A DNA stretch of 64,000 nucleotides, from the NCBI GenBank assembly GCA_009192285.1, contig WBVU01000016.1:1189101-1253100 (forward strand), read 5' to 3'. A program made the position numbers and the translations under genes. This DNA comes from Morchella semilibera (taxonomy: Eukaryota > Ascomycota > Pezizomycetes > Pezizales > Morchellaceae). Under the pieces are notes generated by a model. It worked only from the letters and a program-made list of their open reading frames with translations, was not told the DNA's origin and ran no database searches. Positions 1 to 41,405 of this stretch are shown here, one piece after another (within the stretch, counting starts at the first letter, position 1; each line of letters begins with the position of its first letter).

Positions 1-3000
1 AGGTTACAAGCAGCTGAAAATCCTCGTGCTGCGCAAGACACGACAGATCGTTCCATTTTATCGTCTGCATAACCTTCTTATGCGTCGGATAGTAAACGCG
101 GGGTGGGGTAAGCGACATTATCAGCTTTAGAAGCTTAATCTCCTCTTCCCCCAGCTTTTGGAAGGACCATGTTGTCGCTGATCTAAGATTTGCAAGCGCC
201 TCCTCAGTACCCGTACGTCGGGTAAGTTTATCCGGCAAACAATGTGTAGTCAAGGCATGGAGGTATATTTTGAAGAGATGACTGGTTAGACTGTCGTTTC
301 CTACCAGTCGCCCGAGCTTTGTATCGATCACGTAGTGAAGGTAGGAAACTCTATCCAACTCGTCGTTATCCGTCTCTACCTCAACTCTAACATGATTTCC
401 CTTGATTGAATAGCTGACATCGCCATATGGAATGATAATACTGCGTACCGATTTCTGACGCATAACGAGTCGGTTCACGAGGCCAGTGAATGTCCCAGTA
501 TCTTGACTAAAATCAACAACCATGCCCCGGAATTGCCGGCACTCAATCTCGCCTTTCTCATTTATAAAAAAATCCAACTTTAGTCGAGGTAAATGGATTA
601 AGACCGTGCGACTATCGAGTGCAAAGGTTACATCGATATACTTTGGTGGTTCCAACCTACCCAATACTGAAGTTATCATGGAAAATGAAGCTTTTCGATT
701 GTCCATCATACGTTCATCTCGCAGTACCATGCGAGAGACCAGCCCTAAATAACTCAAGCGCCAATTTGAGGGCGATGATTTCCACGGTTCGCACCTGGGC
801 CTGAACTCGAGAACACGGGTCTTGATTTCCAGCCAATGGAAGTAGTTTTTGGTAAACCCGGCTGGAAAGTCGCCTTGTAATTTTGTGTGGGGTACAAGCT
901 CATACTCGACCCCATTGATCTGAGCTTTTATGAGGAGCTCGTCTTGATGCATACCAAAATGTACCTTTGGAGTTCGTCAGAAATTTCCCTGTGGTCAAGG
1001 GCATGGGGGTATACCTGATGTCCGAAGATCTGATGCCGGGCTTGGAACACCATCCCAGGGAGGTTTGACGGGAATACATCGAAAACTTTCTAAAAGCAGG
1101 CCTTTGTCAGCCTCAGCCCCGGAGCTTAGATCCAAATACTGACCTCTGAGAACAATCGTTTATAAGTGGGGTGTAGGGTATAGCTTGCCCCCATTCTAGA
1201 AAGCGGTAATCCATCCACAAGTAGTTGACCACTAAGCAAGTTGTACCGCACCTCCTGTGACACGTTTCCGGATATTGGAGTAGTATTTGATTTCATCCAT
1301 CTGCTATCGGTCGTACCAAGGGGTTCCCATGGTGACCCTGCTTTATATGCTGTCCACACCCGTGAAATACATTTATTGAGACCATCATTATTCGAAAGTA
1401 TCAACCGCCGAAGGTGATCTTCAATTGCGACAGATAATCTTCGATCCCTATCTAGAAGAAAGCAAGTATGGAGAGGAAAAGTGTCTATGCTTGCAGGAGT
1501 GTTGTTATGAATGATTATGGCGCATTCGACCAAAGTTGCGACATCTCCTCCCGAGCTCAGGACATGCCAAAAGTCACTGTGATCAACATCATAGGTTGCT
1601 CGGCATATGGCAGCCATTTCTAATGCCCGATTCTTCAAATCCTCCAACTGGCCCTCCTTCTCGCATTCCTGTATGTTGCCAGCCAACTGACGAATCCATT
1701 TGAATGTTACAGCACGGGCCCTGCGCAACAAGCGAAATGCGCAATTTCTAACATCCGAACTACTCGCGGCGGTCAAAAGACGAGTAGTTAACCATATCGC
1801 TGACTTTGCAGAAACTCCCTCCAACCAGTTGGCCTCGATACTAGAAAGCAAACTAGAAAGTTCTTGGAGGAGATTACCCCCAAAGACAGGATCTTCGAGT
1901 ATTGCAAAGCATTTCCGAGTCGCACTCAAGTTATCACTATCAGGAGGCCCGGTAAACCATGCAGCTTGCATAAGGAGAATATTCACGGCCTCATCTTTAA
2001 AGGTCAGCGTGCGAGTTCTCAGCTCTCTGACGATATTCAACCACTGAAGGCGATATCCCGCCCGCAGAAATCCAAATGCTATGTATTCATGGAGCGAGAG
2101 TTCTTTCGAACACTCGTGTTGCCTTGAAATAACCTCGTTGGGGGTGTGAATCGTAGAGTTGATTGCATACTGTAGCTTTTGGTAAGGACCCTCGGGAATC
2201 TTGAAGGTGCACATATCCTGTACGTCGCAAATCTCAACACGCACACGCCCATTCACCCATTTCAACCCAGAACTATCCCACAGCTCGTATCTTAGAGCAT
2301 TATCAACACAAATTGATTTGGGGTTATCTGACATGTAAACTTTCGCGTAGTGTGATGTCAAAGTTGCCTTCGTCGATGATGACAGGCGGAGCCGTTGCTG
2401 ACTCGGGCATCTAAAGTATTGCCGTAAACCAATATAGTTGCTAAGATCTGTAAAGGGTCTTTTATCGGGATTTTCCAAAATTACAGGTGGACTGAGAACT
2501 TCAACTAGGAGTTGGTAAGTACTGTCTCTCCAAGCAGAAAACCCACTGGGACATTCCAACTCAAAAACAGCCACCGCACGACAATCTGGATCCGTTGGTA
2601 GAGGCCACTCATGAACTGTTATGCTAAGATTTTGTGCGTAGTCTTGCCATCTGCACTTATAGCACTTTGGGTTGTGATTGGTCCTTCTGCCATCACTACT
2701 CTGAAGGTAATCGCACGGCCGCTCCGTGGCCCGGGCGACTGCGTCGTTATAAATTCGACTCTTTTCTGCAAACTCCTGGATTTTTTTCCCTCTCTCTATG
2801 GCTGCGTCCGATTCTATTGTCTTACAAAGCTGTTGATGTTTCAGGGAGTTTTGAAAGTAGCGTACAGCAAAGGTTCTGCTATTGGCGATATGAGAAAATA
2901 TGTATGTCATGTTTGGGTTGGCCTTTTCACGACGTTCTCTTAAATATGCCTCAACCCGATGTAGACGTTCCATTTGATGATATCTAGGAAGTAGGAGATG

Positions 3001-4618
3001 ATTGAATGGGCAGTTTGCAAACTCTGGAAAAAAGTATTCTGATAGGAGTGAGCACGTATTCACGGCGATCCTGTCGAGGGCCACCCATAACTCCATCGTT
3101 GTTAGTATGAGTATTGACATGCTCTCTGGGTTAGAGGCATACACCGCCTTCCCATGGAGTATATATGTATCAATACTTGACGAAAGCTTGCGACAAGCTC
3201 CTTCATCTTGTAGATTCCTCATAGTCCACCCATCGAGGCTCTCACGAACCCAACGTTCAAAATCTACAAGAAAAATTTGAAGTTCAGCTCCGGACCTGTT
3301 TCCAACATTCAATAATGGAAGATCTTTAGATTTAGGGTCCACGCGTCTCTCCTCGTTTGGGATGTGTACCCTTGACGTTGTGGTATTCGGCACCCTAGAT
3401 ATTGCTGCTGCAAGATAGGCCCCACTTTGAACCAATGATAGTTGTGTGTCGTTATCAGAAGAAAGGATTTGGGGCTTCCAGTTGAAAGGTGTTGAATGAG
3501 CACGATTAATTTCCCCCCACCTACTCCCCAAGAGGTGCGTAGCTTTTCTTAATTGTTCAGATACTTTTTTCAGTAGAAATTCTGGCAGGCCCCCCCTTTT
3601 GCTCATCTTGAATGTACGACGGCCCAGTTTTGCGTTCATGATAAATAAAATATCACTTGGTAGCTGTTGATCCAACGCAATCTTCAAGATATCCGCCATA
3701 AAGAATACCATGAACGCTTTGTATTGACGGTATCCTGAGACATCTGTGGGTCGATCAACTGTAGATTGCAATGCAACTCTGACAATAAGCCAAAGAGGGG
3801 ACCTTCTCCAGGGTATTTCTGCGTCATCCCATAGAACTTCATCTGCAATTCTTTTCTGAATACGGTCGACTTTTGCAGGCTCTCCGATAGCTAGTAATAT
3901 TTCGATAAGTAATTCTGTTATGTATTTTGGGTGGGCGGTCTCTCTTGTTTCAGTGTGGTTTGAGCCTCCTTTCCGGGATTTAGGCATTGCATCTTCAAGC
4001 CCATCAATGTTCATCTTCTCGAGAAAGCTCGAAAGCTCGGAACGGAACTCAAAGTCCTTGGCCTTTTCAAGGCTTACTCTAATTGCTGGTCCAGGAAAGG
4101 AGCAGAGTAGTCTACCTTGGCAACGTAAGGTGTCTTCAGATCTAGGTGACGCTTCAAATGCCTCAAAAATCATGTATTCCTCCGTTTGACGCAAAATCAG
4201 TCCAGCATTTTGCGCTTCGATATGTAGGGCCAAAAAATCTACTTAAATCATTAGAAGACTTATCAACATCATGTTTTTGTGGGAATCCAACCCCCTGTGC
4301 GCATGTTCACTATAGCCTTATTTAAATTTATGCCTGACAAACACCCTCTGGGCTGGACTCTCTCCATCATTGAAATCATTTGTATGCTCGAATTCCATTG
4401 TGATTTTGATGCTGTTAATCCATCCCGGTATGCTTCTGCAGAGTTTCTCACGAGTGCTAGGAGACTGTGGGACTTTGATCCAACTCCCACGTCTGCCTTG
4501 CAGGGTAGTTTTGGTGGTAGAAATACATGGTTGATGATGTACTCCAGGTGAGAGGCACTAATTTTAACTACGCAATGTATAAGTATACATGATGTATTCA
4601 ATTACACTATGTGCCCAT
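1..4618 (-). CDS. DUF6606-family giant protein (N-terminal part, runs off left edge)
   Basis: Exons on the minus strand: 4618-4608, 4557-4292, 4238-1144, 1089-1015 and 964-<1, giving about 1,470 residues before the window ends. Seen: the N-terminal signature LEYIINHVFLPPKLP, then HIEAQNAGLIL, a Cys pair CYKCRWQ, VHEWPLPTD and FELECPSGFSAWRDSTYQ, and further on VFDVFPSNLPGMVFQARHQI and PRVYYPTHKKVMQTIKW. These match the family annotated DUF6606 + DUF3638 + DUF3645, usually about 3,000 residues; the last two domains would lie off the left edge. Databases often call the family ubiquitin hydrolase-like, but I see no catalytic proof here. All four introns are 50-54 bp; the 4239-4291 and 1090-1143 donors (GTTGGA, GTCAGT) are non-consensus but restore the frame and conserved sequence. 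The start is the weakest point: the first exon would be only 11 bp, chosen because no ATG lies in frame upstream of LEYII. Confidence 0.85.
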
Positions 4619-27483: not shown

Positions 27484-30400
27484 TTACAGCGCCCTTTTCT
27501 CTCTGAAAAACCTACCAAAGCTTGCCATGACATCCGAGAATGGCTTATCTACTCGGTCTCGGACTAAACCATTCTGTATCCACCCGGGAAGTTTCGAAGC
27601 TATCCTATCAGTTGTGTAGCGTTTATCAAACAAGGTGATAACAGCATAGTCTTCACGGTGTCTGATAGCTCTTCCAATACTTTGGTTCACCGCTCTCATA
27701 CAAGCGTTGTCATAGAACTCACGTCCAGCAGCTTTGGCAATCGCTTCCAGTGCAGAGGCAGATGGTATATCCTCACCTGGTCTTGCCAGGTGAGTGTCAC
27801 GGGCAACCTTTTCTACATGTTCTAGGCGCGCCCGCCACTCGGGGGTATTGCTGTTTGGAAATGGAAGGCCGACCATGATTATTCCCCTACCTAGACTGTA
27901 TTTTTGTTAATTTTTTGTTAATCCTCTCTTTATTAGCTACTGGCTAAACGTACTTGTCATTGAAATTAATTCCCTCTGACATCTTTCCTCCGACAACCGA
28001 GAGTAAAAGGCCACCTTTCCCGGAGTCGATTGCTTGTGCGTAGTCTTTGAGGGTGTCTTCTACACTGCTGCCATCATTTGATTCTCTAAATACCTGGGAG
28101 AGCGTCAGATTACCTCCGTTACTTGGATTGGGGATTGAATACAGTTTTCCTATCTGCAAGTCTTTCCCAAATAGACTTACCCATAGCCCCAGCCTTTTTC
28201 ATCCATTGGGATATAACATATTCCAAATATGCATAACTAGGAAAGAAGCAAACAATTCCATATGGAATAACAAGGCATAGATTGATAATAGCTCTACCCA
28301 AGTCTTCGATCTATAAGAATGCTTAGCATTGATATTAAAGCTTTTTGAATGATAGGGTAAGCACCATTGCAGGAAGCATCCGCTTCTCGAAAGTAAACTC
28401 GAATTCCCTTCCACTGGGCCCCCTTGTAACAGGCAATGCTACTAAATTTTCCTTTGGTATGACGTGACCACATGAAAGTGTGCGAATCTTTTCTTTTGGT
28501 AAGTACGGGAAAAGGTGCGTCATGTAATCATTCATCTAAGATCAACATTGTCAGTGTTTTACTCATCATATAAGGAGATAGGGCAGGTCTATCTATTACC
28601 GGCTCCATAGTACCCCCAGCTAATATTACTGCTCTTGCCTCCTCCACAATTTCTTTAAAGTGATAAGCAGGGTCCAGCAGCATGTATCGGAAACAAGCTT
28701 CTCTCTCATCTTCACTCTTCCCGTAAAATACTCTCCCTTCGGCTGATGGGTTAGTCAAAGCTAAAAGGAAACCTTGAATGTGCGTGAGAGTTGGTATTGA
28801 CACGGTGGATATATTCTCGCCCATAGCCTTTTTGTACGGTTTTTCCTGCTCTTTGGTCGTGATATGAGCCACATACCCTTCAACCTTCCTCGCAAGTTTA
28901 CTTTCATTTAAGTATCTTTGAAGCTTAAAAAAGTTGATCTGATCCATGCCATTCATTGCGAGTAGGTCTCCGGTAATAACCACCCCCTCGCCTCCTTTCC
29001 TTCCCAACTCCTTCAGATAAGAGATTAGTGTACTCAAGACCCGAGATACTTGCATTACATAGACCTTGTTTTTGCCCTTCAACCGATTCCGAAACTTATT
29101 GAGATAGATTTCAAGCTGTGCCTGACAGCGCTCGAGTTGGCTGAGTGATACATTAATTGAGTAAATTGATGAAATAGCATTAATAAGATTGTGGGCTTCA
29201 TCAATGATTACTATGTGCCCTCTGAGAGAAAGACCGAGTGCTTCCCGGGCTGATTTCTGGAGAAGAAGGGGATACGGTAGGGTCACGATCTAGAAACTTT
29301 CAGTAATTAAGATTTGACTGGTGACGAACGGCGAAGATTTATACCTCGGTTGGTTTTATCGTAGGTCTAGAAGCATAATAAGGGCAAATACCCATCTTTC
29401 TACCCAGGGAAGCCAGCTCTTCGATATCACGAATTTTTGCAAGTGTATGGTCCCGGAAGTCTCTAATAAGTACCTTGTCATGCTTTTCGGGGAGAAACTG
29501 ACATCGTGATTCTTGAGTGCCTTATTGGTAGAAATTAGACTATATTCCCTGCTTCTTATGAACAAAACTCACCAGATCTCTGTAGCTCTAAACATCTCTC
29601 ATTTATCGCAGTAGGGTTGGAGAGTTTTGTAACCTTTGGGTTTATACAGAGATTTTTCCGGGATCCGAGAGGGAGATGTTTTATTTCCCCCTCACAATCC
29701 ACTAAACTATCCTCAGGACCTTCCTGTATGAACGAAGGTGGGAACTTCACACGACGAAGTTCGTTGATGAATTGTGTTAATTGAGAATGAGTCCGGGAGC
29801 AGTAAAAGATCTATAAAACAACAATAAATCTCAATTAGCACTTACCCAAGCCTTTATATTCCCATGTACTTACTTTAATCTCATCGGGTATTTCCAAATC
29901 TTCATCTTTAACATCCGTTTTCATGGGGATACCGAGTCTATATCCTTATTAACCCAAGTTCAGGCATCTCCCAAGCCTTCTTACCTCCTCATCATTTCAA
30001 CCACAGCTGGAGAAAAATCTCCACTACTGCTTGAGTTAGGGTCGTCCCCCTCATCCTCACTATTATATTCGTCCAAAATAAATTGCGCATCTTCATTGTT
30101 ATCTCCATCAATTTCAACCTCAAGCTCCCCTCTCTGTGTGCAAATGTGTAAGTAAAGCTCTTGATCAGGTGTGTCTCAGGAGTGTAGAGATATGATATTG
30201 TACCCTTTTCTTTGCCCTGATCCCCTGAATACCAGACTCTGATCCCTCTTTTTCTTTCCGCTCTTTCTCGCGTATCTTTGAGAGCCGAGCTTCTAGTTCT
30301 GCTTTTTCTTGGAGCAACTTTTCTTTTTGTTGTTTCTTTGCAAAAGTTCGCACCCAATCTGGTCCACCGGTAGTGCTATCTTAAACAGAGAATTAGTAAC

Positions 30401-30782
30401 AACTTACACATTAACTTAACCAAAAGAATACCTTTATCGATCTCTGCGAGGCGGGCTTCGAGGGATTTGGTTTTGTGATCCCTGAGCCAAGTAAGGGAGC
30501 CACATATCAGGCTCAATGATTTACCCTGTACATTATATTTTTTTACCTGTTAGCGGTATATAACCTCGACTCTTTCTTGCCTTGTTCACGCACAGTTCCT
30601 ACATCAAAAGTCCGATTAGTACTAAGATAACGAAATACCGATTGCGAGAGAAACATGCCTGTTGGTGACTCAAAAATACCGATGCAACCATCTTCAATGG
30701 CTGAATAGACTGCATTCATAAAATCTAACTGGATGGGATATGGTGTATATGGATGATGGAAGTCTCGCTCGGGATCCGCCAT
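27484..30782 (-). CDS. CHL1: ATP-dependent DNA helicase CHL1 (DDX11-like, XPD/Rad3 family)
   Basis: Thirteen exons: 30782-30659, 30598-30594, 30525-30432, 30379-30204, 30133-29985, 29937-29874, 29810-29573, 29520-29345, 29289-28600, 28535-28365, 28310-28143, 28093-27954 and 27895-27484; 868 aa, close to yeast Chl1. Motifs: Walker A SPTGTGKS at 39-46, four putative Fe-S cysteines C259, C277, C290 and C329, DEAH at 372-375 ([12 protein letters not shown]), the [13 protein letters not shown] and GLPFPN blocks, and motif [12 protein letters not shown]. The family is a 5'-3' Fe-S helicase needed for sister-chromatid cohesion and replication-coupled repair. Oddities: exon 2 is only 5 nt (GAACT) and supplies part of GTGK; intron 1 has a GC donor (CAG|GCATGT). 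Treating introns 1-2 as one intron creates an immediate stop, so the microexon is needed for an intact Walker A. Confidence 0.95.
30594..30598 (-). other. CHL1: 5-nt microexon of CHL1
   Basis: The sequence GAACT lies between an acceptor GATGTAG with upstream CTAAT and a donor GTGCGT whose intron has CTAAC and ends TACAG. It supplies the second and third bases of a Gly codon and a Thr codon, giving SPT-G-T-GKS across three exons. Confidence 0.8.
30599..30658 (-). other. CHL1: GC-AG intron 1 of CHL1
   Basis: A 60-bp intron with donor CAG|GCATGT, branch CTAAT and acceptor GATGTAG. No GT donor in the right phase is available, and the phase is fixed by the Walker A codons. Confidence 0.8.
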
Positions 30783-39806: not shown

Positions 39807-41405
39807 ATGCCTCCTAAGAAAGAAAAGAAGGAGCACCTCGCTGGTGATCAAGGTGAGAGGTTCTCAGCTTATGTTTACTTTTTATGCATAGAGCCGATAT
39901 TAATCCGTGTTCCTGCATCATATAGCCAATGAACTGATCATCGACTATCTCCGCCAACAGAATCGACCATATTCTGCTACAGGCAAGTAATATTTACTCC
40001 CTGCTTTTCGAGCGATTTCTGTCACGGGAGGTTACGCTTAACTAATAGGAATCTAGACATTAGCGCAAACCTTCATAATGCAGTTACTAAGAGTCAGTAT
40101 CAATTCAGAGGAAACTAGGAATCGCTTCCCAAGTGGAGGCTCCTCTCTCACTTATTTTCAGGCGTTGATAAAAAAAGTAGCTACTGCAGCAAAGATATTG
40201 AAAGAGCTCCATGAGAAGGGGGAAATCGAGGGAAGGGCTTCTGGAAAGCAAGTCGTATATCACGCTACCCAGGTCTCCCTCACTTTTAGATTCCATCTGA
40301 GCTATAAGAGAAAAATATCGTTCTGACATTTTGTATGTGTAGGATCCTAAAGACTTCGCTAGCGCGGAGGACCTGAAGGCTATGGACGAAAATATTGCAG
40401 GCACGTTTATGGCCCTTCTTGCTTTCAGAAGTTTTCAAAGACAGTTAGCTGAAGTTTTATAGTGGTGGCGAATGTGGCTAAGTGAAACTTTTTAGGTACC
40501 AAGCTCAAGATAGTCAAGGTGAAATCTAAGTTCAAGTCGCTCCAAGGAACCTTGAATACACTCAAAGCAGCGCCTACAGTTTCATCACTCTGTGAGACTA
40601 TCAGTACTCTTGAAGCCGAGATTCAGGAACTTGAGTCTTTCCTGAAGCCTATCAGAGCAGGTCCTATCAAGTCTATCTCTGCTACTGAAAAGGCTGCCAT
40701 GGACGTCGAGTATGTGAGACTTGAGACGTTATTGAGGCAGAGAAAGAAAACGTTCAAGGAATTCTGGGGGACCATCTGTGATGGATGCGGGGATTCAAAT
40801 CCCAGTGACCTTTGGGTAAGTCTGGTCGTGATCACACTTCATGAAATCTCATACTCGTACGACCTCCTTCTCTTCTAGCGCCAACCCATTTTTGGTGTTT
40901 TTTATGGATCTCTTATCCGGGACCTATCAGCTTCTTAGCTTTTCTTTGAAATACCTCGCACCACTCAGCCCCTCTGATATCCATTATTGTTTTTATTTTA
41001 TTTTTCCCATGGTCGGGCCATATACACCGTGAAAAATGAGAGACAGTGTCGATCCTGAGTGGCTATGTACTCTACATAGTTTCGTAAACCATTGGTCACG
41101 GACATGTCCCTCGAGAAATGTGGGGAAGCGGGTGATGGCGCGCCGTTTGCTTTTTCCTTGCCCTGCATTTTTCTTTTTGCGGCTTTGATCGTCTGGTTCT
41201 GACAGTGAACAACTTCTTTAAATACTGTCTGTTGTATTTCGGTGTTGGGTCCATGTTCTGTTCGGCCCGAACGGGCTTTACAGGGCTTTGTGCTGCGGTT
41301 TCTTACAAACTGTTTATGTTCTTGCACGCATGCACGCATGCACACATGCACACATATTTGCTAACCCTTGAGAAGGAACGCCTAGGTTTAGAAGAGGATC
41401 CTTGA
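39807..41405 (+). CDS. HOP2: homologous-pairing protein 2 (HOP2/PSMC3IP-like)
   Basis: Exons 39807-39852, 39926-39982, 40057-40092, 40181-40272, 40343-40400, 40496-40815 and 41376-41405 encode 212 aa. Seen: the winged-helix region (ANELIIDYLRQQNRPYSATD, ISANLHNAVTK, AAKILKELHEKGEIEGRASG, KQVVYHA), coiled coil (LKIVKVKSKFKSLQGTLNTL; ISTLEAEIQELESFL) and the Trp-containing region FKEFWGTICDGC. The last exon encodes ERLGLEEDP, fitting the Hop2 C-terminus after PSDLW. Hop2 pairs with Mnd1 to promote Dmc1/Rad51 strand exchange in meiosis. Two introns (39983-40056, 40401-40495) need GC donors (CAG|GCAAGT, CAG|GCACGT) to keep family length. For 40093-40180 the acceptor GTAG at 40180 was preferred over CAG at 40161, which breaks the frame. 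The last intron is 560 bp. Confidence 0.88.
39983..40056 (+). other. HOP2: GC-AG intron 2 of HOP2
   Basis: Donor CAG|GCAAGT, branch CTAAT and acceptor ATCTAG give the conserved PYSATDISANLH junction. The competing GT donor 4 nt downstream with the acceptor at 40048 stays in frame but inserts four residues. Confidence 0.65.
40401..40495 (+). other. HOP2: GC-AG intron 5 of HOP2
   Basis: Donor GCAG|GCACGT, branch CTAAG and acceptor TTTTTAG. The nearest GT donor is out of frame and a later in-phase GT would add about 11 residues to a segment that otherwise matches family length. Confidence 0.65.
40816..41375 (+). other. HOP2: 560-bp last intron of HOP2
   Basis: Donor GTAAGT directly follows PSDLW; the acceptor TTGAGAAG is preceded by a consensus GCTAAC 12 nt upstream. 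It is about ten times the usual intron length here and contains a GCACGCATGCACGCATGCAC-like alternating repeat near 41323-41355. Confidence 0.7.

Follow-up and report, generated by a model that had tools for sequence, protein, structure and literature searches.

A five-nucleotide exon, GAACT, very probably completes the Walker A motif of a CHL1/DDX11-type helicase gene in the window, a 64,000-nucleotide stretch of Morchella semilibera DNA. The gene model places an intact protein of 868 aa in 13 exons on the minus strand (30782–27484), with twelve introns of 47–70 nt each. The parts of the gene are arranged as follows.

30659..30782, minus strand: CHL1 exon 1, 124 nt, from the ATG to ...ESPT plus the first base of a Gly codon
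30599..30658, minus strand: CHL1 intron 1, 60 nt, GC-AG, CAG/GCATGT ... TACTAATC ... GATGTAG, a multiple of three in length and open in frame
30594..30598, minus strand: predicted microexon GAACT, 5 nt, supplying most of the G-T codons of SPTGTGKS
30526..30593, minus strand: CHL1 intron 2, 68 nt, GT-AG, GTGCGT ... GCTAAC ... GTACAG
30432..30525, minus strand: CHL1 exon 3, beginning GGTAAATCA at 30525
27484..30379, minus strand: CHL1 exons 4–13 with nine introns between them (introns 4–12, 47–70 nt each); DEAD_2 and Helicase_C_2 domains

Exon 1 ends in ...TCA CCA ACA G at 30659 and exon 3 starts with GGT AAA TCA, which encodes GKS. Joined straight to 30525, exon 1 runs into an immediate stop (ACA GGG TAA); with GAACT placed between the two exons the junction reads SPTGTGKS, a Walker A motif built from three exons. 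A first-pass annotation of this DNA had proposed a CHL1-type gene in which a 5-nt exon completes both the Walker A motif and the reading frame, and the full gene model supports it. The exon boundaries at 30659 and 30525, the position of GAACT (30598–30594) between GATGTAG and GTGCGT, the stop on direct joining, and the restoration of SPTGTGKS and of the frame of 13 exons (868 aa plus stop) were all borne out. The proposed branch sites, CTAAT in intron 1 and CTAAC in intron 2, are likewise present, leaving 17 and 24 nt between the branch A and the acceptor; candidates in the other ten introns lie at 6–37 nt. In size and signals the element fits a microexon (5 nt, within a limit of 30 nt, flanked by introns 60 and 68 nt long that carry CTAAT and CTAAC). 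Three features of intron 1 were absent from that annotation: its GC donor, its length divisible by three and its open frame. It is unique among the twelve introns of CHL1 in being both a multiple of three and open. Since it is, the main rival to the microexon is a single intron combined with a 20-aa insertion inside the Walker A motif.

The helicase carries XPD/Rad3-type domains (DEAD_2, 1.7e-50; Helicase_C_2, 1e-48) and scores 570 bits against TIGR00604 (rad3), its Walker A motif being conditional on the splice model. It is distinct from RAD3/XPD, which is a separate gene on contig C16, and a genome-wide search for DEAD_2 listed at least nine exon matches, all in RAD3 or the two copies of CHL1. 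The best solved relative is FANCJ at 221 bits, and solved metazoan/fungal-type XPD/Rad3 chains gave only 161–201 bits. No CHL1 chain was found in the PDB search; entry 8rev, labelled CHL1, matches RAD3. Chain 8rev_A, whose label is 'ATP-dependent DNA helicase CHL1', was rejected as a CHL1 reference, as it scores 1006 bits to RAD3 against 161 to CHL1; by sequence it is an XPD/Rad3 protein. By eye, in the unaligned protein, four cysteines stand at plausible Fe-S places (NLCIN, ERCLE, SRCQF and GICPY). An insert contains DEYNSEDE, which resembles, without equalling, the EYE motif (Timeless/Tof1) described in PMC8109800; background on Chl1/DDX11 is given there and in PMC6266566. The domains, the separate RAD3 gene and the motif resemblance together point provisionally to the name CHL1.

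The translation of CHL1 exon 9 (230 aa) was also compared with other contigs. It found no relative among viral contigs; among the other genome contigs it found no fungal locus and three archaeal loci, with 25–42% identity in the best segment, which were uninformative for the splice question. The best solved relatives of the L3 protein are entries 7r81, 8oo0 and 7olc, from Neurospora and Chaetomium, in keeping with a probable place in the Pezizomycotina. Elsewhere in the window, the minus strand at 1126–4242 holds an open frame of 1,038 aa that begins with a DUF6606 match (7.3e-76) and belongs to a large gene.

All routes from exon 1 to 30525 were enumerated with GT or GC donors from 30692 downwards, AG acceptors, introns of 35–250 nt and at most three introns. 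Fifty-three paths were in frame and free of stops; 6 of them use one intron, 47 use two, and none uses three. Only two of the 53 restore SPTGxGKS: the 5-nt microexon, giving SPTGTGKS, and a 1-nt exon with poor sites, giving SPTGIGKS. Dinucleotide shuffles of the 133 nt, in which the end of exon 1 and six bases at each end were fixed and introns were at least 40 nt, contained some Walker-A-restoring microexon in 285 of 20,000 cases (1.4%). None of the 20,000 combined such a microexon with both a GTRNGT donor and a CTAAY ahead of each acceptor, signal criteria that were chosen after the site had been seen.

The two splice versions of the N-terminus were compared with NCBIfam and PDB entries, as Pfam at an E-value of 0.001 gave no match for the N-terminal peptide with either the microexon or the insertion. 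The microexon-spliced N-terminus showed no gap in the motif when aligned to FANCJ (36.4 bits, E 5.9e-8) and scored 24.3 bits against TIGR00604. With the 20-aa insertion, the FANCJ score fell to 16.2 bits (E 0.1), and no TIGR00604 match was listed at E-values up to 10. The 1-nt-exon version reached 21.4 bits in TIGR00604; since this is near the score of the 5-nt version, homology alone hardly separates those two.

Composition of the two introns was scored against 3,000 codons and 25 other introns. CHL1 exons 1–3 and introns 1–2 were left out of the training set, stop triplets were removed before intron windows were scored, and intron windows of fewer than 14 triplets were excluded. The 20 codons read through intron 1 scored −2.53, a value as low in 4 of 149 exon windows, themselves drawn from the training genes, and as high in 24 of 72 intron windows. 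The T content of intron 1, 41.7%, was reached by one of the 149 exon windows. Thus the 60 nt look like intron both in codon score and in T content. Intron 2 is T-poor and goes against the general trend (T makes up 19%, compared with 26% of exons and 32% of the other introns).

Intron 1 has GC...AG ends with a strong consensus match in the 5' flank. Strong pairing of flanking positions that offsets the C is the expected pattern of a GC donor. A second gene with such introns served as a control.

39807..40815, plus strand: HOP2/PSMC3IP-type gene, with GC-AG introns at 39983–40056 and 40401–40495 among five modelled; the model stops at 40815

This gene matches Pfam TBPIP (1.1e-18), and its GC-AG donors are CAG/GCAAGT and CAG/GCACGT. 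An alignment to the solved Hop2-type structure 2mh2 passes ungapped through the first of the two junctions (E 8.6e-10), and the second is spanned only by a weak match to 4y66 (E 0.01). The three GC donors, that of CHL1 and the two of HOP2, agree with the 5' consensus at 7, 8 and 7 of nine positions, whereas the 24 GT donors of CHL1, HOP2, RAD3 and COQ1 average 5.4. A strict donor scan of 234 kb gave four matches, two with GC (CHL1 intron 1 and HOP2 at 39983, plus strand), one with GT and one with CC. A loose scan of the same 234 kb (17 loci and the window) showed no excess of GC, with 17 GC, 34 GT and 7–26 for each of the other 14 dinucleotides. The resulting figure of three GC introns in 27 is biased upwards, HOP2 having come from the scan; minus HOP2 it becomes one in 22, the one being CHL1 intron 1 itself. 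Judged from a small and biased sample, this genome may have more GC-AG introns than is usual. GC donors are uncommon in fungi, where GT-AG introns are reported to make up 98.7% of the total (PMC7072748).

The RAD3 paralogue offers a comparison within the same genome. Its P-loop, LEMPSGTGKT, is uninterrupted, and over the portion of RAD3 examined its 5' coding exons measure 17, 41, 10 and 20 nt (L005:1069-1327, contig C16). At the 10-nt exon a CAGAAG tandem acceptor permits 13 nt instead, with one Glu more. Once spliced, its N-terminus can be aligned to 8rev_A and 5fmf_Y, two solved chains of XPD/Rad3 type, with no gaps. RAD3 introns 4 and 9 (51 and 45 nt) are multiples of three and open in frame, and their removal is required by the alignment; the 45-nt intron (L005:2642-2686) would leave a 15-aa insertion if missed. 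Tiny exons and open introns of a length divisible by three are thus not unusual in this genome. That RAD3 has both supports the splice model of CHL1 and at the same time makes the CHL1 site less special.

A copy of the CHL1 locus on contig C13 is identical over 7,501 bases. It was rejected as a source of divergence for that reason, and C12 and C13 count as one observation. The two contigs are of near-equal size (1,576,628 and 1,575,470 bases), as are C9 and C10 (2,071,371 and 2,071,177 bases), the latter pair being 100% identical where compared (9,952 and 9,873 bases). Both pairs are either assembly duplicates or near-identical homologues.

The arrangement that best explains these results is one in which two short introns split the Walker A codons with five bases between them. 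By intron definition the spliceosome would most likely take out intron 1 (GC-AG) and intron 2 (GT-AG) in turn; GAACT would stay behind as a constitutively included exon of 5 nt, and SPTGTGKS would be restored. Factors cannot sit at both ends of a 5-nt exon simultaneously for want of space, and the introns should therefore be removed in sequence; a comparable argument has been made for plant microexons (PMC8831610). The introns are of normal length, and recognition is probably by intron rather than across the exon. The arrangement may have arisen through the gain of two neighbouring introns within a conserved motif. Besides the homology, the composition of intron 1, the branch-site matches and the P-loop of RAD3, the two GC-AG introns of HOP2 in the window favour this arrangement. 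Against it count the scarcity of GC donors in fungi, the open frame of intron 1, the low T content of intron 2, the lack of a GC excess in the loose scan and the weak match behind the second HOP2 junction. From the genomic sequence we infer the splicing itself, its order, the constitutive inclusion of the exon and the origin by intron gain.

The most direct alternative does without a microexon: exon 1 would continue to 30594 and intron 2 alone would be removed, giving a protein of 888 aa with 20 extra residues in Walker A. The 60 nt are indeed a multiple of three and open, neither a GC donor nor a 5-nt exon is required, and GTGKS is still encoded. Such an insertion, however, would break a P-loop that runs without interruption in FANCJ, XPD and RAD3, and in its presence the TIGR00604 and FANCJ scores collapse. 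Moreover, the 60 nt are intron-like in codon score and T content, start with a donor matching at 7 of 9 positions and carry CTAAT ahead of the AG, and open introns divisible by three do exist here, as seen in introns 4 and 9 of RAD3. We consider the insertion very unlikely. Still less probable, to the point of being hardly credible, is the path in which exon 1 extends to 30655 and a 1-nt exon at 30571 is followed by 30525, to give SPTGIGKS. It is the sole other enumerated path that restores SPTGxGKS, and its N-terminus comes close in TIGR00604 (21.4 against 24.3 bits), but its donors (GTTTCT and GTCGAG) and its acceptor (AGAAAG) are poor, and by eye no CTAAY lies near the first acceptor. Two introns lying so close, with five bases between them in an ascomycete gene, also recall a stwintron, in which one intron is nested in a splice motif of another. 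Removal of the whole 133 nt (30658–30526), however, creates ACA GGG TAA and the five bases are needed in the mRNA, which reduces the probability of this structure to almost nothing.

Given a real microexon, its splicing might in addition be regulated, with retention of intron 1 or skipping of the exon switching CHL1 activity. The two introns differ in what retention would do: read-through of intron 2 hits an in-frame stop at 30543, whereas a transcript that retained only intron 1 would stay in frame and would join GATGTAGGAACT to GGTAAATCA. Regulation would agree with the GC donor of intron 1 and with its standing as the only CHL1 intron both divisible by three and open, and there is a fungal precedent in the glucose-regulated 20-nt microexon of Trichoderma Xlr2 (PMC11121469). 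Against it, the donor of intron 1 has strong flanking matches, and open introns divisible by three also occur in RAD3. In the figures of PMC7072748, introns divisible by three and without a stop make up 9.2% of fungal GT-AG introns and 13.3% of GC-AG introns; openness alone therefore suggests nothing about regulation. The first-pass annotation had described skipping of the exon as an on/off switch. Skipping would indeed end translation at once in ACA GGG TAA, but nothing in the analysis points to regulation, and the proposal overlooked the sole in-frame alternative found for these two introns, retention of intron 1. On balance regulation is unlikely. The more specific proposal, that the double intron acts as a control point at which retention of intron 1 yields an 888-aa CHL1 whose P-loop contains a wedge of 20 residues and a 5-nt skip shuts the gene off, is slightly more doubtful again; if it were true, CHL1 made with intron 1 retained would probably be ATPase-dead and otherwise intact.

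Exons of this size had been called rarely documented in fungi, which overstates their rarity: a 1-nt fungal exon with support from RNA reads has been published (PMC12940212), and RAD3 in the same genome has exons of 10 and 20 nt. That published case, in Fusarium CYP621A, is like the CHL1 exon in lying inside a conserved motif between two short ascomycete introns, in being needed for the frame and in having been first inferred from sequence. It differs, as described in that report, in being 1 nt long and flanked by GT-AG introns, with 20 orthologues and RNA reads from two species, whereas the CHL1 exon is 5 nt long, follows a GC-AG intron and is known from the sequence of one genome. The Trichoderma Xlr2 microexon is likewise small and, in another filamentous ascomycete, encodes a portion of an essential domain; unlike the CHL1 case, which comes from a single genome sequence, it is reported as genus-conserved and glucose-responsive (PMC11121469). 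P450 genes of Phanerochaete chrysosporium are described with exons down to 6 bp (PMC1184071), and an 8-nt Phanerochaete P450 exon is mentioned in PMC12940212; these too are small exons among short introns, in another gene family and in a basidiomycete. Plant microexons of 1–15 nt, including a 5-nt one from rice checked by RT-PCR (PMC8831610), share with that of CHL1 the size class, the misannotation and the conserved coding sequence, but are from plants and are documented by RNA-seq in many species. Stwintrons (PMC6616335) resemble the CHL1 locus in the crowding of introns in an ascomycete transcript; as characterized there, they keep nothing between the outer exons, whereas CHL1 keeps five bases. 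Among the matches listed in a search of the open-access literature (microexon, CHL1 and Walker A/P-loop topics), no microexon in a CHL1 helicase was found.

Smaller fungal exons are already published, and the CHL1 case adds to a known class. Only if RNA revealed that retention of intron 1 is regulated would it point to a new mechanism. Gene prediction that permits neither GC-AG introns nor tiny exons would add 20 residues to the P-loop or lose the motif. What the predicted exon would provide is a clear example of an extremely small exon that sits, beside a GC-AG intron, at the catalytic motif of a conserved fungal helicase.
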